Assembly (NCBI GenBank): GCA_025963465.1
Contig: JAOQAP010000266.1
Coordinates: 1 to 37,061 of the forward strand
Direction of reading: 5' to 3'
Length of the DNA: 37,061 nucleotides
Source: Flavipsychrobacter sp.
GTDB taxonomy: Bacteria; Bacteroidota; Bacteroidia; Chitinophagales; Chitinophagaceae
A model generated the notes under the pieces. It was not told the origin of the DNA. It worked only from the letters and a program-made list of their open reading frames with translations, and did not search any database. Positions 8,815-21,460 of this stretch are shown here, piece by piece (the stretch's first letter is position 1; every line of letters begins with the position of its first letter). A program made the position numbers and the translations under genes.

Positions 8815-9492
8815 ATGAAAAACATTGCTATTGCTACATTAATGCTTATATGGGGGACGGCAAGTGCTCAGAAATCGTCTTCTGGGAATGGCACCTGTAC
8901 TTACCAATCCACTGGCAAAAACACCTATTTTATTCTTGAACCCGGTTACCAGCTTACGTTAAAAGGGACGGACGATGGGAATGAAGTGGTTCTTGTAATC
9001 ACCGTTTTAAAAGAAACAAAAATAATAGGTGGCGTTGAAACAAGAGTAGTAGAGGAAAATGAATCGGAAAACGGCAAAACAGTTGAAAAGTCGTACAACT
9101 ACTTTGCTATTTGTAAAGAGAGCAACACGGTTTATTATTTCGGCGAGGATGTAGATATGTATAAAGATGGTAAAGTGGTTGGCCATGAGGGTTCGTGGCT
9201 TGCAGAAGGAAAAAACAAAGCTGGTATCGCCATGCAGGGTAAATTTGTACCGGGAACTAAATATGCTCAAGAAATAGCTCCTGGAGTTGCAATGGATAAA
9301 GGTGAAATAGTGTCTGCAAAAGGAAAGATGAATACTCCTGCGGGTAATTTTACTAATTGTCTTAAGGTAAAGGAAACAAACGCTTTAAAGCCGAAGGAAA
9401 AAGAATACAAAGTCTATGCGCCGGGTATAGGTCTGATTCAAGATGACAAACTTACGTTAGTTAAGTACGGGTTTATTTCTTCAGCAAAATAA
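8815..9492 (+). CDS. Secreted protein of unknown function
   Basis: I do not recognise this 225-aa protein with certainty. It has a clear signal peptide (about residues 1-18, ending ASAQ). The mature part is soluble, lysine-rich and beta-strand rich, with a C-terminal KVYAPGIGLIQDDKLTLVKYG stretch of the sort found in Bacteroidota periplasmic or outer-membrane-associated proteins with a DUF3108-like beta-sheet fold; that fold resemblance is only an impression. It is 93 nt downstream of the EamA gene on the same strand. No lipobox is visible. Confidence 0.75.
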   Translation: MKNIAIATLMLIWGTASAQKSSSGNGTCTYQSTGKNTYFILEPGYQLTLKGTDDGNEVVLVITVLKETKIIGGVETRVVEENESENGKTVEKSYNYFAICKESNTVYYFGEDVDMYKDGKVVGHEGSWLAEGKNKAGIAMQGKFVPGTKYAQEIAPGVAMDKGEIVSAKGKMNTPAGNFTNCLKVKETNALKPKEKEYKVYAPGIGLIQDDKLTLVKYGFISSAK

Positions 9493-9540
9493 ATTTGGGC
9501 AAAAATGGAGAACTATTTTAGGGTGGCTGGCAATTTTTGC

Positions 9541-9580
9541 TTTAATTATCTCTAATTGTCTTTCACTGTCTTTAATTGTC
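9541..9580. repeat. 10-bp tandem repeat array, left of the R-M cluster
   Basis: Four head-to-tail 10-nt units with consensus TTTAATTGTC: TTTAATTATC, TCTAATTGTC, TTTCACTGTC and TTTAATTGTC. The next ten bases are a weaker match. Read on the strand of the R-M operon the unit is GACAATTAAA. The array lies in a short gap between the secreted-protein gene and the tail end of the leftward cluster. A similar 10-bp phased set lies on the other side of the cluster near 18770-18889. Confidence 0.8.
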
Positions 9581-9626
9581 CCGCAATTGGTACAATACTC
9601 TTGCAGAATTGGAACTTTATTATCCC

Positions 9627-10094
9627 CTAATAGATTTTACGCCGCATTTCCGGTCTTACTTCCCCTTCCTCATCCACCCATTCCGGCAAACAATAATAAT
9701 TCCCCCTCACACCTTTCAATTTATACGGAATTAACCTGCCATGTTGCATAGCCACATTAAGAAATGCCGACAGAAACTTCTCCTTGCTGACCTTTTCATG
9801 CAATACCGGCTCTTTCTTTTGTAGTACCTCAATAATTTCGGCAGAACGGAGTGGTTTATTAGCCTGCGTAACTAAAAAAACGATTTTGCTGATCCATGAC
9901 CAGCTATAATCGTAATGTTCGGCTGGCGTTTCATGCTTTTTTAGCTTCCTTTTTAGCTTTTCATTTTCGGTTGTAAGGTTTTTGACCTGATCAAGGGCTT
10001 CTTTCAGTTCATTTTGCTTGTCTGCAACCTGTTTTTTGAGGTTTTTGACCTTTATTTCCAGTCGTGCAATGGTAAATTCAGCATTGTTTGACAT
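9627..10094 (-). CDS. Coiled-coil plus winged-helix-like protein
   Basis: This 155-aa protein has two parts. Residues about 6-52 form a strongly charged heptad-type coiled coil. Residues about 64-140 look like a compact helical domain of the winged-helix/HARE type (WSWISKIVFLVTQANKPLRS, then EIIEVLQKKEP and a later strand with NYYCLPEWVD). A DNA-binding or protein-scaffolding role is plausible, but no family is named with confidence. It is the last gene of the leftward cluster, separated from the previous gene by 153 nt that contain direct repeats, so it may be transcribed on its own. Confidence 0.75.
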   Translation of the reverse strand: MSNNAEFTIARLEIKVKNLKKQVADKQNELKEALDQVKNLTTENEKLKRKLKKHETPAEHYDYSWSWISKIVFLVTQANKPLRSAEIIEVLQKKEPVLHEKVSKEKFLSAFLNVAMQHGRLIPYKLKGVRGNYYCLPEWVDEEGEVRPEMRRKIY

Positions 10095-10120
10095 AACCGC
10101 AATGATTTTCCGTATAAAAT

Positions 10121-10218
10121 CCGACTATTTTCTTTTATGTTCTAATGATAATCTAATATCCGGGTAAACATCGTGAATGATTTTTCGAATACCGGGCAAA
10201 CGGGAGCCGACTATTTTC
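10121..10218. repeat. Direct repeat pair CCGACTATTTTC
   Basis: The 12-mer CCGACTATTTTC occurs at 10121-10132 and again at 10207-10218. A second, looser pair (CCGGGTAAAC and CCGGGCAAAC) lies between them. Both pairs fall in the 153-nt gap just upstream of the 155-aa gene on the minus strand and may be regulatory. Confidence 0.6.
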
Positions 10219-10247
10219 AACAATGTAAAGCCCGGTTTTTAAATAGG

Positions 10248-11171
10248 CTATAAATAAGTTTTAAGGGCATTGTTGATCCGGTTAATAATTCCGACTACCT
10301 CTTGCATCCGGGTTAATTCATAACTATCGTCAACGAACAATGAAATATATGCTTCGTAATGCGCCAGAAACTTATTCTTAAAGTCCGCATCGTGAAAAAG
10401 AAATGTCAGGTAGTCTCCCTGCTTCTTCGCCATCAGCATTTCGAGGTATGGACTAATATAATTTTTAAGAGCATCCCATACATTAGGATATCTCAGGTAA
10501 CGATCGTCTATTATCGCAGCCTCATCTATTTCGTCATTCCATGCATATACCATAGCGACGACATTGTATCCAAGCATTATTCGTATTACTTCATACAGGT
10601 CTTTATCTACATCGTCACCAATAATCACGCCCTTACTATTCAGAAATGCCTCTGCTACCTTCGCGTATTCGTAGGCAAGCTCCCGCTCATTGGCGGTTCT
10701 TAGCAGTTCATACGCTATACCTATGGCATCCTCTTTATTTTCCAGCAATGCAGGTGTTACAGTTCTGTAGTCTGGTATTAGCCTGCGTTCTTGAGGTTCC
10801 TCATCATCGGCCAAGTATTCGTCCGGCTCATTTGTAAACAGCAATTCTATATACTCTCGTTCATCAAAGTCTTCTACAATCTTCATCCTTCTTGCGGCCT
10901 CCAGGTATGGGGTTAGCTGAAAGTCATCCAGCAGCACGTAATCATCGCCTGGAAAACAATAGTTTTCTTTAGTCAGACGCAGGGAAATATGGTTGTCTGG
11001 TATTGTACTCAATTTAGGAGGTAAATCTCCAGTTCGCAGCACTACCATATCCAGCTCATGGTCTGGTTCCCAATCGTGGGGTAGGTAGCCATGTATCAAT
11101 ATATAGATATGGTCGGTAGCGCTCTGGTCTACCAAATGTTCATACCAATCTTTTTTCCTCCTCGATATCAT
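10248..11171 (-). CDS. Unknown acidic protein at the end of the R-M operon
   Basis: I do not recognise a family in this 307-aa soluble protein. The N-terminal 90 residues look alpha/beta (HIYILIHGYLPHDWE followed by short strands). The middle is acidic (repeated DD/EE around residues 110-125), and the C-terminal 180 residues are mainly helical. No nuclease motif, membrane helix or signal peptide is seen. Its start codon overlaps the stop of the phospholipase D-like gene by 4 nt, so the two are likely translated together and may form one functional pair, for example effector and partner. It is the last member of the tightly packed operon that begins with mod. Confidence 0.75.
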   Translation of the reverse strand: MISRRKKDWYEHLVDQSATDHIYILIHGYLPHDWEPDHELDMVVLRTGDLPPKLSTIPDNHISLRLTKENYCFPGDDYVLLDDFQLTPYLEAARRMKIVEDFDEREYIELLFTNEPDEYLADDEEPQERRLIPDYRTVTPALLENKEDAIGIAYELLRTANERELAYEYAKVAEAFLNSKGVIIGDDVDKDLYEVIRIMLGYNVVAMVYAWNDEIDEAAIIDDRYLRYPNVWDALKNYISPYLEMLMAKKQGDYLTFLFHDADFKNKFLAHYEAYISLFVDDSYELTRMQEVVGIINRINNALKTYL

Positions 11172-11998
11172 CTCTGTGCCTTTTTGAGAGCTTCGACGCT
11201 TGAAATAAAGTCTATTACCGATGCTACTAGCTCTTGTTCTTCTGTCTTATCCAAATTATTGATCGTACTGCTTTTTAATCCAATAAGCTTTCCCAATGCC
11301 ATATCATAGTACCCGTTGCCGCCGCCTGCCAGTTCAAACTGAATTTTTGATTTTGCCACGGGGAAAGGGTTCGCCAAAGCATGTGCATATTCTTTGTTAC
11401 TTAGAATTCCTGAAATTTCCAGACAGTTTCCTTTTTTATGGCTGATAGCAACTTCATAGCGATTGGCGGTGTTTATTAGTAGCTTACCGGGAGATTCAGT
11501 AATTCTTACCGTTCTGTTTAGTGCGTTATACAATCCATTTTCTAATTCTTCCCGCCAATCATAATCTGCACTTATTGCAGTCTTAGGATTAACTACAGGG
11601 TTCCTAATGTATCTGATGTAGTAATCCTTCACTTCGTTATACTCTTTTTCATTTTCAGTCTTAAAGCCAATATCTATCGAATTGGTATCAGAACTGAGCA
11701 ATAAATTCATGGAAGAGACGATTGCATACTTTTCGTTCAGATAAACTTTCGCATGGAGGTTAGGCACTAAGATAGGTTGATAGCGGACTGCCAAAATCTC
11801 ATCAATACTTTCATTTTCGTGCTCACGCACGTATATTTTAACATCTATATTTCTTTGCTTTAAAACCTTTAATTTATTCAGCAGTTTATACCATTTCTTA
11901 ATTTTTACATACGGACATATCAGGACGACTTTTTCATCAGCCTCCTCAATCAACGTCATTATTTCACCTGATATTAAGCTCGGTTTAATCAACTGCAT
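11168..11998 (-). CDS. Phospholipase D-like (single HKD) protein
   Basis: This 276-aa protein has one PLD-type catalytic motif: H82-x-K84 in NLHAKVYLNEK, followed by the serine/asparagine stretch SSMN at 95-98. The acidic residue usual after HxK is a glutamate. Upstream, residues about 23-60 form the expected beta-strand/helix unit (VVLICPYVKI...VKIYVRE). One-motif PLD proteins act as dimers, and in prokaryotic defence loci they often serve as nucleases (BfiI-like or NucC/PLD effector type). The C-terminal third is a separate, unassigned domain. Gene spacing is 18 nt from the CoiA-like gene upstream and a 4-nt overlap with the gene downstream. Confidence 0.82.
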   Translation of the reverse strand: MQLIKPSLISGEIMTLIEEADEKVVLICPYVKIKKWYKLLNKLKVLKQRNIDVKIYVREHENESIDEILAVRYQPILVPNLHAKVYLNEKYAIVSSMNLLLSSDTNSIDIGFKTENEKEYNEVKDYYIRYIRNPVVNPKTAISADYDWREELENGLYNALNRTVRITESPGKLLINTANRYEVAISHKKGNCLEISGILSNKEYAHALANPFPVAKSKIQFELAGGGNGYYDMALGKLIGLKSSTINNLDKTEEQELVASVIDFISSVEALKKAQR

Positions 11999-12016
11999 GG
12001 TTTACTAAATATTAAT

Positions 12017-12685
12017 TCAGCGTCTTTGTCGCCGTTTGCGAAATTTTTTATTTTTCAATTTTGAATAGCCAACCCAGCTAAGAAAGATTGCTACTAAAAA
12101 AAGTAAAAAGTAAGTCATGCCGCTATTCTTCTCAACTTTTAGCTGTTCACCTTTCCAATTTACTACTTCTTTTTTATCGATTTGGTCAATGAGGATTTTT
12201 TCCAGTTCTAAGTATGAGCATTCTCTCGGTAGCGAGCTAAAATCAACTTCGACAGCATTATAGCTTTGTCCCTGAATTTTCGCTAGCTTTTCTTCAGTAA
12301 TAAAACTTGTCACTGCAATTTCAATAAGAACTTTATCGGTTGTCGTAACCAGTATTATGTCAGGGCGTATGCTTTCTAACTTGCACTCTTCAATCACTTC
12401 AGCATATTGAAAATAGCCTTCTTGATTTGGAAGTGCTAATTGCCGATTATTTACTAGGATCTTTTTTGCTAGCTTATGCAATATAGTCTCACCATCGCAC
12501 TCAGTACCGGTGATATGTTTAAAATGATGCCGCCTCGCTTCTCCTTTTCTTGCTTGTAATTCATTACCACATTCTATACAAATGCAATCACAGGCATTGC
12601 CTCGCAGCACTTCACTGACATGTACAATATTGCCAGTGGACTTATCCTCTGCAAAAACATTTAGGGTATCTGCGGTTTGGTTCAT
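12017..12685 (-). CDS. CoiA-like nuclease with C-terminal membrane helix
   Basis: This 222-aa protein resembles the competence protein CoiA family. The N-terminal part has a metal-binding pattern with cysteines at 32/34/36/39, the HHFKH motif at 53-57 and C63. A restriction-endonuclease-like core follows, with RPD at 107-109 and EIAV from E122, which fits a PD-(D/E)XK-type active site in degenerate form. A hydrophobic helix at about 191-207 and a very basic tail (KNKKFRKRRQRR) end the protein, predicting a membrane anchor with the basic end in the cytosol. CoiA itself is linked to DNA processing after uptake; here the context is an R-M operon, so a defence role is inferred. Confidence 0.75.
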   Translation of the reverse strand: MNQTADTLNVFAEDKSTGNIVHVSEVLRGNACDCICIECGNELQARKGEARRHHFKHITGTECDGETILHKLAKKILVNNRQLALPNQEGYFQYAEVIEECKLESIRPDIILVTTTDKVLIEIAVTSFITEEKLAKIQGQSYNAVEVDFSSLPRECSYLELEKILIDQIDKKEVVNWKGEQLKVEKNSGMTYFLLFLVAIFLSWVGYSKLKNKKFRKRRQRR

Positions 12686-12711
12686 TTGAATTTTTCTAAT
12701 CCGGTGGCTGT

Positions 12712-13029
12712 TTATTTCCTTTTTAAACCATCAAAAGCTTTTGGATCGTTTGTACGTAAATACTGCTCAACTCTGGTATAATGGGGTGGCATCGCTAATT
12801 TAAATTGCCCTTGCAACAGGCGGCCCTTAAACATCAAATCAACCCGTCTCGTAATTTGAGCGTGAGTTTCTTCATCAATTTGCGTCTTTGATTTTTGCTT
12901 TGGAGAAGCGAAGGAATTGCCATGTTTAGCCACCACTATTGCTTGCTCAAATTTGCGTTCAATTTCTTCAACTTTAGCAAGCAAAGTATCTAATTTGCTT
13001 TCCAGCTTTTTCACGTCTTCATCAGTCAT
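12712..13029 (-). CDS. Small coiled-coil protein of unknown function
   Basis: This 105-aa protein starts with a heptad-rich, charged coiled coil (about residues 3-30, DVKKLESKLDTLLAKVEEIE). A flexible stretch and a C-terminal segment with several aromatic and basic residues follow (PPHYTRVEQYLR). No catalytic motif is visible. Spacing of 22 nt to the DUF5655 gene and 26 nt to the CoiA-like gene places it firmly in the R-M operon, where it could serve as an adaptor or oligomerisation subunit; that is inference only. Confidence 0.72.
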   Translation of the reverse strand: MTDEDVKKLESKLDTLLAKVEEIERKFEQAIVVAKHGNSFASPKQKSKTQIDEETHAQITRRVDLMFKGRLLQGQFKLAMPPHYTRVEQYLRTNDPKAFDGLKRK

Positions 13030-13051
13030 TATCGAATAATAATTTGCCAGT

Positions 13052-13966
13052 TTACTTGTTCTTTTGAGCAGCCTGCTTAATTAAACTCAGAATGTAATCT
13101 ACGTCCTCCAGATCGGGTAATTTTATTTCATAGGCTCCATTTCCCCAGTGTCCAACGTTAGATACATCCCTCGCTATTTTTTTAGGGTCTTTCAATTCAC
13201 CACTTTTCAGATTCAGATATATTTTTAGCCCTTTACCTTGCAGTACTATATCGCAAAATATGTTATTGTCTGTCTTAAAGCCTAGTGTTTGTTTCTTCGG
13301 CTGAATGGCAATATTTCCGTCAAGAGCTAACAACCTTGTTTTAAATTGTTCATACAATTCTCTAGTTTCAAAATCAACTTTAGCCAGATGATCTTGTTCT
13401 GTGTAAACTTTTACTTCTTTATTTACGTTGTCCACAGTGGCGTTCGTGCCTGATATTGTCTTGATACTTTCCTTTGCCGATAATTTCTGTATTTGGTCGA
13501 ATGAAATGGTGCCATTCTCAAACTTCCTGATTTCCCAAAGTTCAATTGGCAGGTCTTTAAAATTGATTGCCTCCCGCTGATAGTTTGTAAAAGATGGGGA
13601 GACGAAAATCACTTTCGACTGTGTCCAGTCAACATCAGACCTTTTTAAGCTGGTGTTTTGGCTTTCGTTGTACTCAAGTATAAAGTCTGCTTTATTATTG
13701 AGCATAAGTGAGAGGTAGGCATATCCCTGATCAATAACGCTAAATGTTTTGTCCCGTTTGTATTCAATGATTATAAATGCTTTTGATTCCGCATCAAAAG
13801 CAAGAGTATCAATTCTGAAACTATTTAAGGAGAATTCCGATCGAATGAATTGCAGGTTTAGTAGCGTGCTGACGTTCACTTCTACGAGTTGCTGAATCTC
13901 ACGTTCAAACTTGAAGGAGGCTTCTTTAATGTGTGAAAATTTCTGGTCAATAGAATACAATGGCAT
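13052..13966 (-). CDS. PD-(D/E)XK nuclease-like protein with DUF5655 domain
   Basis: This 304-aa protein has two parts. Residues about 15-165 look like a restriction-type nuclease fold: conserved E23, RIDTLAF with D53, then IIIEYKR giving E68-x-K70, and Q80 in the following helix. Residues about 190-300 match the DUF5655 domain (COG3586), an alpha/beta module often placed at the C-terminus of such nucleases or next to R-M genes. The natural reading is a DNA-binding or DNA-cutting accessory of the type III system. It starts 18 nt after res ends. Catalytic competence is not proved, but the D...ExK triad is intact. Confidence 0.8.
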   Translation of the reverse strand: MPLYSIDQKFSHIKEASFKFEREIQQLVEVNVSTLLNLQFIRSEFSLNSFRIDTLAFDAESKAFIIIEYKRDKTFSVIDQGYAYLSLMLNNKADFILEYNESQNTSLKRSDVDWTQSKVIFVSPSFTNYQREAINFKDLPIELWEIRKFENGTISFDQIQKLSAKESIKTISGTNATVDNVNKEVKVYTEQDHLAKVDFETRELYEQFKTRLLALDGNIAIQPKKQTLGFKTDNNIFCDIVLQGKGLKIYLNLKSGELKDPKKIARDVSNVGHWGNGAYEIKLPDLEDVDYILSLIKQAAQKNK

Positions 13967-13984
13967 AGCGCAATTCTTTAGCGA

Positions 13985-16624
13985 TTACAGTTGTTTAATA
14001 ATGTTCTTAGCCTCATCCACACTTAGCGTATCAGCTAGTTTACTTGTCTCAAATACCATCAGATAAAGATAGCCGTCTCCGGCCTTGCTTGCCCAATCTC
14101 TACCGAGCCGGTTTTTTGCTTCACTATCTGAATTATCACGATCATCGCCCTTTGTTTCAAGTACAATGGTCTTACCTTGTTTGGTTACAATAATAAAATC
14201 GGGATAGTGATTGCTTTTGAAGCCGTTAATTGCAAACCCCTTGCCGCGGCCAAGATTGCGATGCCAAAAGGCTATATTTGGCAAGCTGGCAATTTCGGCA
14301 ATTATTTTAGTTTCAAAATTATTCATGTCGCCTTCTCGCTCGTACAGCGCATTGGCAATATCACTACCTAATTTACCCGGCACAATGTATTCAGGCAATG
14401 CAAAGTTGAACTGCATCTTTATCTTACCCGACAACAACATCTCTCTGAATTTCTTCTCTGCATAACCATCAGCCAATTGCTTCATTTTTATTTTCAGCTT
14501 TGAGCTATAGGTATATTTTCGAGCCAGGAAATCTTGCAACTGTTCTGTGTTCATTTCACTCAAAATACGTTCTACGTATTTGCTGATATCATCTTCCTTC
14601 AGCGGATACATATCGCCTATCAGGTCTACCATTACTCTTGCTATGTCCTTTATCTGGTTTTCTTTAGGTTTGGCAAGAATATATTCCACCAGCGGCTCCT
14701 TTACAACGCTGTCCTCGATAGGAATGAACTTAGGAGTATATTCTCCTTTCCTCGTCTCTTCAATATCTATTTTATAAAGGTCAGATTTTATGCTATCGAA
14801 ATTTACCTCTGCATTTTGTGCTGCTAGTTTAAATCCTTCCAGCAATTCACCTTGTTCAAGCAACTTGCTGTCAATACCCTCAAAAAACAGATTGCTTTTT
14901 GGCGTGTCTATGTAGAACTGTGGCAGGCGTATTGCTTTTGCCTCATTCGCCACAGCATCGCGCATTTTGTATTTTTTCACCTTGTCTGATATTTCTGAAA
15001 ATAATGAGGCATTGGCATCTTCTGTCTGTTCCTGCACCAGTTTATCAAATGCGGTGCTGGTCTCCTGCGCCAGTAATTCTATGCTAGCTAATGGCTGATA
15101 TGTTGTTTCTGCTGTAATCTCTGTTGGATTGAAATTGATCTTACTGGTATCAATATCATCTACCACTGTTGTGTTAGCTTCCTGCCTTTCCGGGAAAAGG
15201 AAGTTTTCCACCGGAGTGGGAACTGCTTGCTTCACATCTTCCGGCATTTTATCTATTCCCCGATAGTCGTTCTTGCTGAATCCGGCATTCTGAAGACCGT
15301 TTACGATGTTCTGTAACGTTAATTCAAACTTTGCCGATGCCGTTAACACATAAGAAAGGTTGAGCTGAAAGTGATTATGTTTAATTACATATGGCTGGCG
15401 AAGCACACGACCTAATATCTGCTCAACATCTACCGCAGAAGATTTATCGGCTAACGATGCAAGTATATAAGCAAACGGGCAGTCCCAGCCTTCTTTCAGC
15501 GCATTTACTGTTATGATATACCTTACGACACAATCCTTGCTCATCAGGTTTATACCTTTCAGTTCGTCAATTTCGGCGGTCTTTATTTTAATCTGGTCTT
15601 CTGGTATGCCCAGGCTCAGTAGTTTTTCTTTCAGTTTTCTGAAGTCTATATTCTCATCCTTTGTTCGAGGTTGTGCCTGAAACAACACAATAGGCCGGAT
15701 GTATCTGCCTCCGCCTACTTCCTCTCTTTCGGCCAGTATTTCCAGCTTTCTTTGCAGGTGTAGGGCACTACTTATGACTTCATTTTTATCCTGATGGTTG
15801 TAGGCAATTACTGGCAGCTTTACCATTTGCTCCTTCTTCAGCTCCAGCGCATTGACAAAACTGATGATATTGCTTTTGTCTTTAGGAGTTGCGGTAAGAT
15901 CAAGTATAAAGCTTGGGTTCAGATTTTGCAGCATGTCGGTACTTAGCTCACTTTCCGCATTGTGGCTTTCATCTACTATAAGCACTGGGCAAAGGCTGCG
16001 TATCACATTTATAAGTGCAGTTTCATCTGTGTCCGGCAGCAAATGGGTGTTATCTTTTACCAATTCAGAAAACTGCGCCAGTTGCCCATTTTCTTCATAG
16101 ATTTTACGGTCTTCTTTTTTCTTTGCCCGTATACTGGCAAAGTTCATCACAAATATGCTCAACTGCTCACTAACCACCGTAGGGTTGAAATTCGTACCCT
16201 GCAACAAGTCTTTCTTCTCATATACTTCTACTCGTCCGTTAAACAGTGCATTGAGCTTTTGGCGATATGGGTGGGAAGGGTTAGATAAATTTTTAACTGT
16301 CTGATCCAGCAGGTTGCTCCAGGGCACCAGCCAAACAACCGCCTTGGGCTTTGAGGTATCGTAAGATTCAAATATTGTTTTCAGTGCATTGCAGGCTATA
16401 AATGTTTTTCCTCCCGCCGTAGGCACTTTCATACATATATGCACAGCACCCGGCACGCTGTTTTGGTACGGGCGCATACCCGTTTGGGCTATCGGGTTAT
16501 ATGCGCCTATCTTATCTTCCCAATATTTATTGAACGCTACATCTGTGCGCTTGTATTGCTGCACATAGTCGAGGTATTCGTCCAGGTCGGTAATTACCTT
16601 TTGCTGGTATGGTTTCAGTTCCAT
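13985..16624 (-). CDS. res: Type III restriction enzyme, Res subunit
   Basis: This 879-aa protein is the ATP-driven DNA translocase/endonuclease of a type III R-M system. Helicase motif I is PTAGGKT at 68-74, motif II is DESH at 218-221 and motif III is TATP at 244-247. The helicase C-domain carries the arginine-finger-like GRVLRQPY segment. At the C-terminus is the PD-(D/E)XK nuclease site: HYPDF with D809 and VLETKG with E823-x-K825. All expected catalytic residues are present, so it looks active. Res works in a complex with Mod and cuts unmethylated DNA after interaction between two recognition sites. It begins 3 nt after mod ends, so the two are co-transcribed. Confidence 0.93.
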   Translation of the reverse strand: MELKPYQQKVITDLDEYLDYVQQYKRTDVAFNKYWEDKIGAYNPIAQTGMRPYQNSVPGAVHICMKVPTAGGKTFIACNALKTIFESYDTSKPKAVVWLVPWSNLLDQTVKNLSNPSHPYRQKLNALFNGRVEVYEKKDLLQGTNFNPTVVSEQLSIFVMNFASIRAKKKEDRKIYEENGQLAQFSELVKDNTHLLPDTDETALINVIRSLCPVLIVDESHNAESELSTDMLQNLNPSFILDLTATPKDKSNIISFVNALELKKEQMVKLPVIAYNHQDKNEVISSALHLQRKLEILAEREEVGGGRYIRPIVLFQAQPRTKDENIDFRKLKEKLLSLGIPEDQIKIKTAEIDELKGINLMSKDCVVRYIITVNALKEGWDCPFAYILASLADKSSAVDVEQILGRVLRQPYVIKHNHFQLNLSYVLTASAKFELTLQNIVNGLQNAGFSKNDYRGIDKMPEDVKQAVPTPVENFLFPERQEANTTVVDDIDTSKINFNPTEITAETTYQPLASIELLAQETSTAFDKLVQEQTEDANASLFSEISDKVKKYKMRDAVANEAKAIRLPQFYIDTPKSNLFFEGIDSKLLEQGELLEGFKLAAQNAEVNFDSIKSDLYKIDIEETRKGEYTPKFIPIEDSVVKEPLVEYILAKPKENQIKDIARVMVDLIGDMYPLKEDDISKYVERILSEMNTEQLQDFLARKYTYSSKLKIKMKQLADGYAEKKFREMLLSGKIKMQFNFALPEYIVPGKLGSDIANALYEREGDMNNFETKIIAEIASLPNIAFWHRNLGRGKGFAINGFKSNHYPDFIIVTKQGKTIVLETKGDDRDNSDSEAKNRLGRDWASKAGDGYLYLMVFETSKLADTLSVDEAKNIIKQL

Positions 16625-16627
16625 TGG

Positions 16628-18223
16628 TTAGAATCGGGTTATATCTCTAGGTATTTTTTTGAAAACAATATTCTTCTTTAGCATAAACTCCTTACTCAAT
16701 AAACAATTGTCGGCATAGATAAGATACTGGTCAGCCTTGGTCTTTATAGTAGCAAGGAAATCATTGTTAAGCGTTGTCATTTCGTTTTTTTCGTAAAAGA
16801 AATAATACCCTGTAGCATTGTATTTATCCAGAAGGTAGCTGTTATCCTTTTTCTGGTATGGCTTTCCTTCCGTTAGCGGTTGTTGGGTCTCAGTATAATA
16901 AACGTACTGCCTTATCTTTTCCAAGGCAACATTTTCATTAAGCATTTTGTCTTCGTCAAACATTGTCTCACCAAGCGTATAATAATCAAATGCGCCGCCT
17001 GTTCCGTCAACATCTGCATAGCCATTCGATACCCGCTTAACTCTTTCCGCAGTTAGCGTCTCGGCATAGTCTTCCATTTCTATAAGTATGAATTTTCTCT
17101 CACCACCGTCCTGTTTATTTAAGTTGAGTACAGCATGAGCCGTAGTGCCGGAACCTGCAAAGGAATCTAATACAATTGAATCTTTTGAAGTGGCAATTTC
17201 CAAAACCCTATTAACCAATCTCACAGGCTTTGGAGTATCGAATGCATCTAACTTTCCAAAAAAGGAATGAATTTCCTTCTTTGCTTCGTCAGTATGACCA
17301 ACTTCATTTGATGGCCACCACGACCAAGGGACGAAACCATCTATTTCAGAAAGGTATCTTATTACGTTTGGTTGTGAATTTTCATCCTTGCCGAAATAAA
17401 TCCTATTTGACTCTAATAATTTTTTAAACTCAGACTCCACCATTGACCAACATCTGCCTTCTGGAGGAATATGTATTGCACCTTTAGGAGCTTTGATCTC
17501 ATACATTTGATTAGGTCGATAGCCCTGCGCAGTCATAGGAATTGCCCTCCACCTTCCTTTGGGATCTTTATTTGTGTTTTTATAAATTGCCACTTGATCC
17601 TCTGTAGGGCTAATTTTGTTTGCGACTAGCTTAAACTTTTCGTAGTTTTTTGCGTAAATCAAAATGAACTCATGTGCATCTCCGATAATCCCTCGGTTTT
17701 CTCGTGAATATCGCTTCTGCCAAATGGTATTGACAACGAAGTTTCGTGCTCCGAAAATTTCATCTGCCATTATTTTCAGAAATGCCTGTTCATTATCATC
17801 TATAGATATGAAGATTGCTCCGTCCTCGGCGAGCAGTTTGTGCAAAAGTTTCAACCTAGGGTACATCATACAGAGCCATTTATCATGACGGCTTAAGTCT
17901 TCACCATCTTTACCCACTACCTGATGCAGCCATTTCTTTATTTTAGGGTCATTTACGTTATCGTTATATACCCATCCTTCATTACCGGTAGTATATGGCG
18001 GGTCTATGTAGATGCATTTTATCCGCCCCTCATATTCCGGCAGCAGTGCTTTTAGTGCTTCCAGGTTATCGCCATGTATTATTTTATTACCGCTGCCGGT
18101 TTCTGTTTCTTTCTTTTCGCCATCGGTTGCCGTAAAGCCATATTGATGCTCTAATACCCTATACGGTACCTGTTGGTGGTGGTTTACAACCTTTTCTTTG
18201 CCTATCCAGTGTAATGTGGGCAT
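16628..18223 (-). CDS. mod: Type III adenine-N6 DNA methyltransferase, Mod subunit
   Basis: This 531-aa protein is the recognition and methylation subunit. The catalytic motif DPPY is at 74-77 (IYIDPPYTTGNE) and the AdoMet-binding FAGSGTT is at 355-361. This order, catalytic motif first, is that of beta-class N6-adenine methyltransferases. The region between about 195 and 330 is the likely target recognition domain. No homopolymer or tetranucleotide tract that would suggest phase variation was seen in the gene. It is the first gene of the leftward operon. The 1-kb gene-free region with 10-bp repeats lies directly upstream, so expression may be controlled from there. The frame is complete. Confidence 0.94.
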   Translation of the reverse strand: MPTLHWIGKEKVVNHHQQVPYRVLEHQYGFTATDGEKKETETGSGNKIIHGDNLEALKALLPEYEGRIKCIYIDPPYTTGNEGWVYNDNVNDPKIKKWLHQVVGKDGEDLSRHDKWLCMMYPRLKLLHKLLAEDGAIFISIDDNEQAFLKIMADEIFGARNFVVNTIWQKRYSRENRGIIGDAHEFILIYAKNYEKFKLVANKISPTEDQVAIYKNTNKDPKGRWRAIPMTAQGYRPNQMYEIKAPKGAIHIPPEGRCWSMVESEFKKLLESNRIYFGKDENSQPNVIRYLSEIDGFVPWSWWPSNEVGHTDEAKKEIHSFFGKLDAFDTPKPVRLVNRVLEIATSKDSIVLDSFAGSGTTAHAVLNLNKQDGGERKFILIEMEDYAETLTAERVKRVSNGYADVDGTGGAFDYYTLGETMFDEDKMLNENVALEKIRQYVYYTETQQPLTEGKPYQKKDNSYLLDKYNATGYYFFYEKNEMTTLNNDFLATIKTKADQYLIYADNCLLSKEFMLKKNIVFKKIPRDITRF

Positions 18224-18417
18224 AATTATAGTCTGATCTTGGTATTAAATGCTGAAAAATACAACAAATGTGGCTATCGGCGCATTAGCAATGATATTGT
18301 TGTTTTCGCAGTCAAAGCCTGTGCTGTTTTGTTGCTGTTACCTGCCATCATTTCATGCGCTCCGTGTCAGGTTCCAACGACTATTTGACAATAAATAAAA
18401 ATATATTTGTCGGTACT

Positions 18418-18457
18418 ATTTGAGAATGTTTGAACGAATTTAAATAAAATTAGAATA
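18418..18457. repeat. Degenerate 10-bp phased T-rich units
   Basis: Four consecutive 10-nt units begin ATTTGAGAAT, GTTTGAACGA, ATTTAAATAA and AATTAGAATA, with TTT or TT at the same place in each. The match is loose, and phased T-tracts alone could also explain it as bent DNA. Confidence 0.4.
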
Positions 18458-18590
18458 GCATTAGATTTCAATTTTGGTCAAAATTGTCAGTTTTTCTGGC
18501 GTGCCAATTGCAGTATATATAGTATGGGAAAATGGCTAAAATTAACAATGCGGATTGATTGTAAAGGTTTGGAAATATTGTTACTTATTG

Positions 18591-18640
18591 GCAGTTCTGG
18601 TTGATTCTGCATGTTTTCGCAAGATTTTGCATGTTTTCAT
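18591..18640. repeat. 10-bp tandem units with duplicated GCATGTTTTC
   Basis: Consecutive 10-nt units TTGATTCTGC, ATGTTTTCGC, AAGATTTTGC and ATGTTTTCAT. In another register GCATGTTTTC occurs twice exactly 20 nt apart (18609 and 18629). The spacing is a multiple of one helical turn, like the larger array downstream. Confidence 0.6.
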
Positions 18641-18724
18641 ACAATAACACTAATTATCGAAAAATAATGAAAAGCAACGTCTGAAATTCGCCCGATAGCG
18701 GAAAGTGGCACTTTTAGCTGACTA

Positions 18725-18732
18725 TACCTTTG
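18725..18732 (+). promoter_or_regulatory. Promoter-like -7 box TACCTTTG
   Basis: Exact match to the Bacteroidota TAnnTTTG box, on the plus strand, about 480 nt before the 87-aa/recombinase unit. No clear TTG element is seen 19-20 nt upstream, so this is weak support. If used, the transcript would run through the 10-bp array at 18770-18889 as a long leader. Confidence 0.35.
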
Positions 18733-18769
18733 TACCGGCGGAGCATTAAGACGGTTACAAACTAACCAT

Positions 18770-18889
18770 AACGTGCCTTTATGTGCCTTAACGTGCCAAA
18801 AGGTAGCGTTTCATAACGTTTGTTGCTGTTTGTTGACGTTTCGAAGCATAATCGATCATTTCATGCTGTTTCATTACGTTTCATGCGCT
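18770..18889. repeat. Twelve-unit 10-bp tandem array upstream of recombinase
   Basis: Written in blocks of ten from 18770, this stretch falls into aligned decamers: three of the type AACGTGCCTT (18770, 18780, 18790), a bridging unit at 18800, then units carrying TTTCAT or TTTGTT in the same register. GTTT is found at 18808, 18818, 18828, 18838, 18868 and 18878, with ATTT at 18858, always 10 nt apart, and the block at 18848 is degenerate. On the other strand the two unit types read GGCACGTTAA and GAAACGTNAT. The step equals one DNA helical turn, so all units face the same side of the helix. Confidence 0.85.
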
Positions 18890-19211
18890 AAGTAGAACGT
18901 GCCGCCTATCGGTCACCGTACCTTTATCGCGAACCTGGAAGATGACCCCTATGAAACTGTAGGGATATTGGGATAGGCGTAATACAGAAAACGGCAAACT
19001 CGTAAAAGTATGGATTGGCCCAACGGCAACTTTGCATTGCAGCCGGAGAATTAATGAAACCGTTAGTAAAAAACAAGAGAAATAGATATGAGAGCAAGAG
19101 AGCCACCGAAGATCGCTAAAAGCTGCGAGAAGATGACGATGATCGTTGGGCTAATTTTAGAATAACAGGGGCGATATCCCTTACTGCTTTCAAGTCTATG
19201 GCAGCAAGGAA

Positions 19212-19475
19212 ATGTTAATTGTAAAACGTATAACAAAGTGTATGGCAAAAGGATTTAACTTAGATTCATTAGACAGGACAGAGGATATATCTATTGACGA
19301 TGTTAGAAGTCTGGATACTTTTAAAGATTGGGATGAGGAGCGGATTTCAGAGCTAATCAGAACATTAAAAGCCTTTTCAGCGGTAGTGTATAATAGCTGG
19401 TCAAAAGGAAAGAAGTTTGGCAAAGAAATTGCTTTAGATAATAGTAATCAAACAGAAATCAAAATAGCAGCATGA
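19212..19475 (+). CDS. Small protein coupled to serine recombinase
   Basis: I do not recognise a family for this 87-aa, charged, mostly helical protein. An in-frame ATG at 19242 is an alternative start. Its stop overlaps the recombinase start by 4 nt (ATGA), which is usual for coupled translation, so a role as accessory or directionality factor for the recombinase is plausible but only inferred. It has no signal peptide or membrane helix. Confidence 0.7.
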   Translation: MLIVKRITKCMAKGFNLDSLDRTEDISIDDVRSLDTFKDWDEERISELIRTLKAFSAVVYNSWSKGKKFGKEIALDNSNQTEIKIAA

Positions 19476-21295
19476 GTAAACACGGACTTGAGTTATTCCA
19501 AACATTTGGAAAAGGAAGGAACAAACAAACCGCAGCTACACGCAACTGTGTAATTTACACAAGGGTTTCAACAAAAGAACAGGCAGACAATAATATGAGC
19601 CTTGAAACGCAAAAGAAAGCTTGTGAACAATACGCTGTCAAAAATGGCTACCAGATTATGGGGTGCTTTGGTGGCACATACGAAAGTGCAAAGACCGATG
19701 AGCGTAAACACTTTAATTCAATGCTTGCGTTTGTGAAAAAAAGCCGAGAGAAAATATCTCACATCATCGTTTACAGTGTCGATAGGTTTAGTCGCTCTGG
19801 TGCAAATGCTATTTACATAGCCGAAAAATTAAAGAGGGAAGGAGTAAGCGTATTCTCAATAACACAGCCCTCAGATTCGACTACTGCAAGCGGGAGTTTA
19901 CAACAGAACATACAATTCATATTTAGTGAGTATGACAACCAGCAGCGCAGGGAAAAATGCATGGCAGGAGTGAGAGAGAAGATACATCAGGGCATTTGGT
20001 GTACTGCTCCACCAATGGGTTATGACATTGTTTGGGAAAAAGGTGTGAAGTCTTTCAAGGTTAACAGTGTCGGCAAACTATTAAGAAAGGGATTCTTCTG
20101 GAAGGCAGAAGGCTTAACCAATGAAGAAGTGAGAAGTAAACTTGCGGTGCATGGCTTAAAATTGAGCAATCAAAGGGTATCTGATTTTCTCAGGAATCCA
20201 TTTTATTGTGGCTTGCTTGTACATAGTGCATTAGAAGGGAGGGTGATAGACGGTATTCAGGAGAAGGTGATTTCTAAAGAGATATTTTTAGAGGTAAACG
20301 GACTGTTAGCCAAGAATCATCAAGGATATAGGGTTAAAGACGACAATGAAAATATCCCGTTAAAGCGCTTCCTGAAATGTGATGAATGCAGTAGTTATTT
20401 GAGGGGCTACAAAGCCTATAAAAATCAGAAATACTACTACAAATGCAATACACCCGGCTGCAAGAACAATAGGAGGGCTGATAGCCTGCATGAGGCGATA
20501 AAAGCTATAATGGAGAAGTACACCGTTGACATCAACGATGATTACCGTAAGCTCATCAAAGCACAGATTACTGCTACCTACAATCAGCTAAACAAAGACA
20601 AGGACGAATTAAAAATTAGTCTTGAGAAGCAACTGGCAGAAGTAGAAAAGAAGATTGAGCGACTGGAGGAACGCTACATTCTTGAGGAAATAGATAAGGC
20701 CATGTTCGATAAATTTAAAGGCAAGTTTATTGCAGAAAGGTCAGAAATTTACAAAAGCCTCGCTAAGAACGTGAAAAAGGTGTCGAACCTTGAATTGTTG
20801 ATTGATAACGCAATAACAATGGCCTCGAAACTCGCTTCCCTGTGGGATTCCAGTGATTACGCTGATAAACAAACGCTGCAAAAGTTAGTATTTCCAGAAG
20901 GATTGTCCTATTGCAGGAAAACAAACGAGTGTCGAACCCTGAGAGTAAATTCAGTATTCCACTATATTGTAGATTTGACGGGCATTTCAGCCAAAAGTAA
21001 AAGCGGGAACATTACTCTTTCGAGTGATGTTCCCGCTTTTGTGGAGAATACCGGAGTCGAACCGGTTACCTTCCCGATGCCTCGGGACGCCTACCGCTCG
21101 TTTGCTATTACCTGCTCTATAAATTTTCTGCTCTTCATTCTTTTTATGAATGATTCCCGCTGCATCGCGGCAGAACGGCTATCATACGTTTCCAGTTTTT
21201 TCAGTTCCCACGGCACTCCATATTTTGTAGACGTATTCTTTCCACCGTTATGCTGCGCCAGACGTATATCCATATTCTCACAGCAGCCTATATAG
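19472..21295 (+). CDS. Large serine recombinase (integrase) with read-through C-terminus
   Basis: This protein cuts and rejoins DNA at attachment sites. The resolvase catalytic domain spans about residues 25-170, with nucleophile S33 in YTRVSTKEQ and the conserved DRFSRSG motif near 110. A recombinase domain follows (about 180-275, including NPFYCGLL), then a zinc ribbon with two CxxC-like pairs (FLKCDEC...YKCNTPGC, about 303-330) and a coiled coil (about 365-420), as in large serine integrases. The frame gives 607 aa, but from about residue 509 it is encoded by a terminator hairpin, then the antisense of a tRNA-Ala 3' fragment (the VENTGVEPV stretch), then the antisense of the GIY-YIG gene. 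The native protein probably ended near residue 510, or the ending is set by the insertion site. Confidence 0.9.
   Translation: MSKHGLELFQTFGKGRNKQTAATRNCVIYTRVSTKEQADNNMSLETQKKACEQYAVKNGYQIMGCFGGTYESAKTDERKHFNSMLAFVKKSREKISHIIVYSVDRFSRSGANAIYIAEKLKREGVSVFSITQPSDSTTASGSLQQNIQFIFSEYDNQQRREKCMAGVREKIHQGIWCTAPPMGYDIVWEKGVKSFKVNSVGKLLRKGFFWKAEGLTNEEVRSKLAVHGLKLSNQRVSDFLRNPFYCGLLVHSALEGRVIDGIQEKVISKEIFLEVNGLLAKNHQGYRVKDDNENIPLKRFLKCDECSSYLRGYKAYKNQKYYYKCNTPGCKNNRRADSLHEAIKAIMEKYTVDINDDYRKLIKAQITATYNQLNKDKDELKISLEKQLAEVEKKIERLEERYILEEIDKAMFDKFKGKFIAERSEIYKSLAKNVKKVSNLELLIDNAITMASKLASLWDSSDYADKQTLQKLVFPEGLSYCRKTNECRTLRVNSVFHYIVDLTGISAKSKSGNITLSSDVPAFVENTGVEPVTFPMPRDAYRSFAITCSINFLLFILFMNDSRCIAAERLSYVSSFFSSHGTPYFVDVFFPPLCCARRISIFSQQPI
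20999..21040. terminator. Strong bidirectional terminator hairpin
   Basis: Inverted repeat with a 14-bp perfect outer stem (AAAAGCGGGAACAT paired with its complement ending in CTTTT), an inner ACTC/GAGT extension and a small loop. T-tracts lie on both strands. It lies inside the recombinase reading frame and next to the tRNA-Ala 3' fragment, so it would end transcripts coming from the tRNA/GIY-YIG side as well as from the recombinase. Confidence 0.85.
21041..21096 (-). pseudogene. tRNA-Ala 3' fragment (integration scar)
   Basis: On the minus strand this holds the 3' part of a tRNA-Ala: a remnant of the D arm (GCGGTAGGC), an altered anticodon arm with TCCCG/CGGGA stem and a six-base GGC-containing loop, the full T arm (ACCGG TTCGACT CCGGT) and the acceptor strand ATTCTCC. 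No complete CCA follows. The T arm and acceptor are identical to the intact tRNA-Ala 300 bp away. The 5' half is missing, so it is not a functional tRNA. It is the expected scar of insertion at a tRNA 3' end. Confidence 0.8.
21072..21087. repeat. TCCCGA-N4-TCGGGA palindrome, copy 1
   Basis: Perfect 6-bp inverted repeat with a 4-nt spacer, lying in the anticodon-arm position of the tRNA-Ala 3' fragment. Similar palindromes, each followed on one strand by AAGG, occur at 21502-21517 and 29636-29653. Confidence 0.75.
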
Positions 21296-21384: not shown

Positions 21385-21460
21385 TGGTGGAGAATACCGG
21401 AGTCGAACCGGTTACCTTTTGCATGCCATGCAAACGCTCTACCAGATGAGCTAATTCCCC
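21385..21460 (-). tRNA. tRNA-Ala, anticodon GGC
   Basis: Folds as a standard 76-nt cloverleaf with encoded CCA. The acceptor is GGGGAAT/ATTCTCC, the D arm GCTC...GAGC with GG in the loop, the anticodon stem TTTGC/GCAAA with loop ATGGCAT (anticodon GGC), the variable loop AGGTA and the T arm ACCGG-TTCGACT-CCGGT. It decodes GCC and GCU. A terminator hairpin follows directly. This is the only complete tRNA in the window, flanked by partial copies on both sides. Confidence 0.95.

Follow-up and report, generated by a model that had tools for sequence, protein, structure and literature searches.

The DNA analyzed here (the window) is the whole of contig JAOQAP010000266.1, 37,061 nucleotides of the draft genome of Flavipsychrobacter sp. 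(GCA_025963465.1; 4.18 Mb in 277 contigs). It carries a putative mobile element in which a leftward gene set spanning 9627 to 18223, including type III restriction-modification (R-M) genes, is followed on its right by ~1 kb of non-coding DNA, an 87-residue open reading frame (ORF), a large serine recombinase gene and a tRNA-Ala gene. An initial annotation of this DNA had described arrays of 10-bp units on both sides of the R-M cluster, four decamers at the left and about twelve at the right, and had assigned both to the cluster. We found that the arrays seem to belong to the recombinase gene of the mobile element and not to the restriction genes. Our main reading, to which we give a probability of about one half, is that the right-hand array (array 2; 18767-18886, forward strand) and a further one beside it (array 3; 18551-18660, forward strand) are promoter-upstream tracts of the recombinase operon, read by a protein lining one face of the DNA, with the left-hand array (array 1; a 49-bp motif at 9540-9588) being a separate site at the putative element end.

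Array 1, close to where the element putatively ends on the left, consists of four decamers at 9541-9580 (TTTAATTATC TCTAATTGTC TTTCACTGTC TTTAATTGTC) and was reported by Tandem Repeats Finder as 9540-9580 with a period of 10. Array 2 holds twelve decamers in a single 10-bp register upstream of the recombinase, the first three being AACGTGCC-like and the rest mostly bearing CGTTT or TGTTT; Tandem Repeats Finder reported it as three rows of period 10. Array 3 was absent from the initial annotation and equals array 2 in strength (lag-10 identity 0.555 in 110-bp scanning windows, start 18554). With the whole window shuffled 200 times under a first-order Markov model as a control, lag-10 identity at 9541 was 0.767 in 30-bp scanning windows (top shuffle 0.70) and that at 18766 was 0.555 in 110-bp scanning windows (top shuffle 0.49), with period 10 scoring highest of 38 periods at both sizes. 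For each of the three arrays the observed value was reached by none of 1000 local dinucleotide-preserving shuffles, so that the two arrays first described, and the match of their step to one helical turn, were both borne out. The units of array 2 are diverged, yet the exact 10-bp step is held over 120 bp. At lag 10, 16 of 18 segments had more matches than the shuffle mean when G/C positions were counted and 17 of 18 when A/T positions were; since both kinds of position repeat, it is whole units that repeat. The loose consensus that had been offered for all unit types was uninformative, as it matched the window 59 times against a shuffle mean of 61 and fitted exactly one of the four array-1 units and four of the twelve array-2 units, and we rejected a single unit pattern for all arrays.

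For comparison we used 52 loci of related recombinases (individual loci are designated by L numbers), labelled Chitinophagaceae, Bacteroidetes and allied names. The non-coding DNA upstream of these recombinase relatives had an excess of identity at lags of 10, 20 and 30: in a pool of 45 upstream segments (33.8 kb) that excluded the window and its five close relatives L012, L028, L029, L044 and L045, lag 10 was raised by 1.89% (z 7.7), with z values of 6.2 at lag 20 and 4.2 at lag 30. There was no lag-10 excess in an intergenic sample of 229 segments (81.7 kb) from six genomes (-0.08%, z -0.5). The upstream segments were also raised at lags 9, 11, 12 and 21 (z 4.4, 3.9, 6.4 and 5.7), and the intergenic sample too was raised at lags 9, 12 and 21 (z 4.2, 4.8 and 4.6) and hardly at lag 11 (1.7). 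Counted as individual arrays of period 10, there were seven in the upstream DNA, two in the larger intergenic sample and three in intergenic DNA elsewhere in these loci. Strong arrays (p≤0.01) occurred in 7 of 46 recombinase upstream regions, versus 1 of 92 for the two control periods, 8 and 13. The flanks upstream of 15 relatives of the methylase gene, counted without the window and without L102, L103 and L111 (each the second piece of a gene counted once already), held no array at p≤0.05 (lowest 0.057), two of these flanks being short (360 and 746 bases) and six partly coding because the match started inside the gene. With arrays present upstream of recombinases and absent from the methylase flanks, we therefore take them to go with the recombinase, and the assignment to the R-M cluster was rejected.

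Between arrays 3 and 2 is a promoter-like box, P1 (18701-18732, forward strand; -7 box TACCTTTG at 18725-18732), and a weaker second one, P2, comes after array 2 (18895-18926, forward strand; -7 box TACCTTTA at 18919-18926); both are putative promoters. At L019, L042, L043 and others the decamers extend to a similar box (consensus by eye AAACNGGAAAGTGNNYTTTTNNGCNNNNGTANNTTTG), after which come one or two small ORFs and then the recombinase. By eye, the box was present within the 330 bp preceding 7 of 12 relatives of the small gene ORF1. A loose box pattern matched 9 of 46 upstream clusters and none when the clusters were reversed or complemented; a stricter promoter pattern had a single match among 40 relatives, and exact promoter patterns had no match in viral contigs. 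Searching 396 genomes with two mismatches allowed, the box pattern (drawn from few loci, L019 among them) had 45 matches in 38 genomes versus 15 for the backwards pattern. Thirty of the 45 matches had a locus. In five of these a serine recombinase lies no more than 1.5 kb away, and each of the five has an upstream period-10 array (lag-10 z above 2; Stouffer 9.3), three of them (L223, L224 and L232) being at places already read and L224 being a close relative of L019. Only one of the remaining 25 located matches (L231) has such an array, and A/T-phase coherence was 0.96 in the recombinase-near matches versus 0.32 in the rest. Among the 15 matches that had no locus, L253 alone was read.

The arrays stand in a common register with the box. 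Using TAnnTTTG as the anchor in 16 promoters from outside the window, we found the A/T tracts to lie in one common helical phase, with A/T content ranging by phase from 37% to 87% and no promoter deviating from that phase by more than 2.3 bp. The phase power was 116, compared to a mean of 32 and a maximum of 102 in 5000 draws of a null that broke the register by a random shift within ten bases, and random sets of 16 from 259 TAnnTTTG strings (genome sample, coding DNA included) had power of at most 46. This set omitted L168, a likely chance or coding match, and L154 and L158, which are near relatives of L153 and L156. In Flavobacterium psychrophilum, passages of a published study place the box at -12 to -5 (PMC9723704); numbered accordingly, the A/T tracts center near -40, -50, -60 and so on up to -110. 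If P2 is taken as its box, array 2 of the window is within 0.1 bp of the common phase. The unit sequences themselves vary widely among elements, some having TTT where others have AAA.

Several related arrangements were seen. At L011, by eye, about four promoter-like boxes stand in tandem upstream of the recombinase (9200-9640), ~110–130 bp apart, and at L153, L154 and L156 the 10-bp array is preceded by a second, distal one with a best lag of 11. L041 has AACGGAAACC-type repeats at ~8850-8985 with steps of ~10 (some 12, by eye), inside a reading frame. L231 and L249 have a strong CCCAAACGTG-type decamer array before a 177-residue gene without assigned family, and at L253 a similar box with decamers precedes an operon of small genes that by eye looked phage-like, for which none of the seven proteins tested had a PHROG match.

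Array 1 differs from the other two. Genes 8815-9492 and 9627-10094 converge on it from either side, and for this reason it is not a promoter of the cluster. Its 49-bp ungapped motif was also found at L011, L022, L033 (two copies) and L250, giving six copies in five elements; L250 is a different element of the same genome, with a recombinase 26% identical to that of the window. Run on reversed sequence, the array-1 model had a sole match with an E-value of 2.8. In the window, L011, L022 and L033 the motif follows the 3' end of the same 155-residue gene. A pattern search of the 396 genomes with array 1 gave 16 matches in 15 genomes versus ~24 for the backwards control, the two standout matches lying on the L033 contig. 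Array 1 is thus a conserved motif of its own, and the two flanking arrays cannot be treated as one kind of element. Array 1 is probably a recognition site of the element end, which the recombinase or a helper would recognize during excision and integration. The two copies at L033 (4942-4987 and 9452-9499) share one orientation and are separated by 4.5 kb, which suggests tandem units or cassettes. The left end of L054 resembles array 1 by eye, without a motif match.

The position and phase of the arrays upstream of the recombinase point to transcription control of a recombinase operon, which would comprise the 87-residue ORF and the large serine recombinase, transcribed rightwards. Each decamer would form one binding unit per helical turn, so that A/T tracts near -40, -50, -60 and further from the start site would present a fixed face relative to RNA polymerase; most likely, a DNA-binding protein aligned along this polymerase-facing side would control recombinase expression and hence excision and integration. 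We infer the promoter function of the boxes, the reading of the units by a dedicated regulator and the direction in which it would act. A protein lining one face of the DNA, as the initial annotation had put forward, remains the best account for array 2, and of its suggested roles, control region may hold for array 2 and insertion end for array 1.

A number of observations weigh against this reading. Most recombinase relatives have no strong array, the seven upstream regions mentioned above being all that have one among 46, and nine of the 46 have the box; for 5 of the 12 ORF1 relatives, inspection by eye of the preceding 330 bp showed no box and no array. Several of the 16 promoters used for the phase analysis (L043b, L156, L231 and L253) were chosen with their arrays already seen. 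In the window itself, P1 is 1.7 bp off the common phase and the 70 bp before it overlap just the end of array 3, phase power within 70 bp is modest (p 0.017 for P1 and 0.028 for P2), and P2 has a poor -7 box that was missed by the promoter pattern and read directly from the sequence. The strong array of L231 precedes a gene with no recombinase among the listed surrounding ORFs, and an element on contig C203 of the same genome has the box with an array that is not significant (L234, z 1.2). As for array 1, it was found at 4 of the 12 left ends compared, with no match at the other eight.

An alternative account, which we consider unlikely though it deserves attention, is that the C-terminal domain of the polymerase alpha subunit reads the phased A/T tracts and makes a dedicated regulator unnecessary. 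The genome encodes an alpha C-terminal domain in which equivalents of the E. coli DNA-contact residues R265, K291, N294 and K298 are present by eye. The tracts near -40, -50 and -60 overlap the region, -60 to -40, where the E. coli domains are described in passages of PMC7822876 as contacting the narrow A/T minor groove, and passages on Helicobacter pylori sabA give a precedent for 10-bp phased A-boxes being bound by polymerase far upstream (PMC4081817). In those same passages scrambling of the A-boxes increased activity 2- to 3-fold (PMC4081817), so such boxes need not stimulate. The UP consensus was matched at 9 of 14 positions at best, with none of 18 promoters reaching 12 or more, and the repetition extends to G/C positions. 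Two alpha domains usually reach less far than -164, which is about where array 2 would end if counted from P2. Because G/C positions repeat and the UP consensus is unmet, we favor a dedicated regulator over alpha alone; both may act.

Other explanations fared less well. Array 2 lies within the recombinase module, and it could consist of binding sites for the recombinase or a helper, of arm type or as an enhancer, serving recombination in place of transcription; this we hold to be improbable, as the array is fixed in phase to a promoter-like box, the putative core is at the opposite end of the recombinase gene, and the units vary between related elements. For large serine recombinases, moreover, attachment sites are normally ~50 bp long and lack arms. 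Even less probable is intrinsically bent DNA without a specific reader, one of the explanations first offered: predicted bend was modestly raised for array 2 (z 1.9) and array 3 (z 1.4), but it was not consistently raised over 12 segments (Stouffer z 0.9), and for the L043, L231 and L153 tracts, as for array 1, it lay below that of their own shuffles, all of these being predictions from wedge values. We rejected bending on this basis. A functionless tandem duplication of ten bases, which would fit the impression by eye that units within an array are more alike than units of other elements, has slighter odds again; the units of array 2 have diverged while keeping their step, and phase to the box is common to elements with different units. 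The lowest probability, a very small one, goes to the first proposal, in which the arrays serve to regulate the type III R-M genes. Arrays do occur on both sides of that cluster and array 2 starts 544 bp from the methylase start codon, but the methylase flanks described above were without arrays, array 1 between convergent gene ends leaves no place for a cluster promoter, and L011, L022 and L033 carry the array-1 motif with no methylase or helicase relative in the sequenced stretches compared.

The leftward set includes the type III methylase (16628-18223), the type III restriction helicase (13985-16624), a PDC-S18/DUF5655 protein, a PLD-like protein (under the Pfam cut-off) and others, and ends with the 155-residue protein of unassigned family (9627-10094, reverse strand), the final gene ahead of array 1, which had weak Pfam matches under the cut-off, mostly to its N-terminal part. 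When eight cluster proteins were compared by tblastn with the 52 recombinase loci, the 155-residue protein had relatives in at least 14, a 307-residue protein in at least one and the other six in none, these counts being lower bounds because contig ends cut many loci; the cargo thus varies among related elements. The 87-residue ORF (ORF2; 19212-19475, forward strand) is directly 5' of the recombinase, had no Pfam match and has relatives in 28 of the 52 loci. In family searches the 155-residue protein, ORF1 and ORF2 had no match that passed the cut-offs. The recombinase (19472-21295, forward strand) has resolvase, recombinase and zinc-ribbon domains in a single protein, as expected of a large serine recombinase. 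The cargo and the recombinase module are separated by a conserved block (18376-18533) common to many related elements, which is perhaps the promoter of the leftward cargo; ATTTG-like boxes (ATTTG/ATTAGA) were seen in it by eye at 10–11 bp steps.

At the right, an intact tRNA-Ala (GGC) gene (21385-21460, reverse strand) has a 32-bp exact copy of its 3' end at 21041-21072, within the 3' end of the recombinase gene, inside its reading frame and displaced by 346 bp relative to the intact tRNA; we regard this copy as a putative attachment core. At L011, L012, L013, L019 and L050 the end of the recombinase continues into tRNA-Ala. By eye, a long inverted repeat (~20998-21038) lies in the recombinase 3' end just ahead of the tRNA copy, and a GIY-YIG-like ORF lies between the copy and the intact tRNA. 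The right-hand core would lie at the 32-bp copy, with the array-1 motif near the putative left end. A search beside lpxB for the empty site located tRNA-Ala in 7 of 21 loci scanned and did not fix the left crossover; the left-flank gene had no relatives among 39 other genomes (E≤1e-10), and a distant BLAST of plasmids with 18200-19500 gave no match.

Among known systems, the closest in layout are UP elements and phased upstream A-tracts of bacterial promoters, such as those of E. coli rrnB P1 and H. pylori sabA; the likeness is in A/T tracts one turn apart at about -40, -50 and -60, here in helical phase with a putative core promoter. The arrays differ from UP elements in lacking the consensus, in that G/C positions repeat too and in that they can pass -100. 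The RcoLS20 operators of plasmid pLS20 are alike in having several copies of a short motif near promoters of transfer functions, and half a helical turn between operators abolished regulation; the passages of that study describe no strict 10-bp array (PMC4207663). We identified no Rco-like regulator in this element. The window recombinase had weak model matches to XisF of the fdxN element and to CcrB and CcrC of staphylococcal cassette chromosome elements, which share varying cargo; however, it scored far under the curated cut-offs (107 vs. 375 bits for XisF, 62 vs. 900 for CcrB) and, unlike these, is located at a tRNA-Ala 3' end.

Nothing was found in the open-access literature on decamer arrays in Bacteroidota mobile elements. 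We tentatively suggest, as a possibility that we ourselves consider doubtful, a so far undescribed class of Bacteroidota mobile-element promoter with long helix-phased decamer tracts, in which the unit sequence changes between elements, step and phase to the promoter are kept, and an element-specific, filament-forming regulator would switch the recombinase on. If our reading is true, decamer tracts would mark the control switch of those serine-recombinase elements of Chitinophagaceae and allied bacteria whose cargo varies (a restriction system in the present case), and would give a direct handle on the timing of element movement. They would also provide a natural set of phased arrays for learning how promoter-upstream helical phase is read when the bases vary freely.

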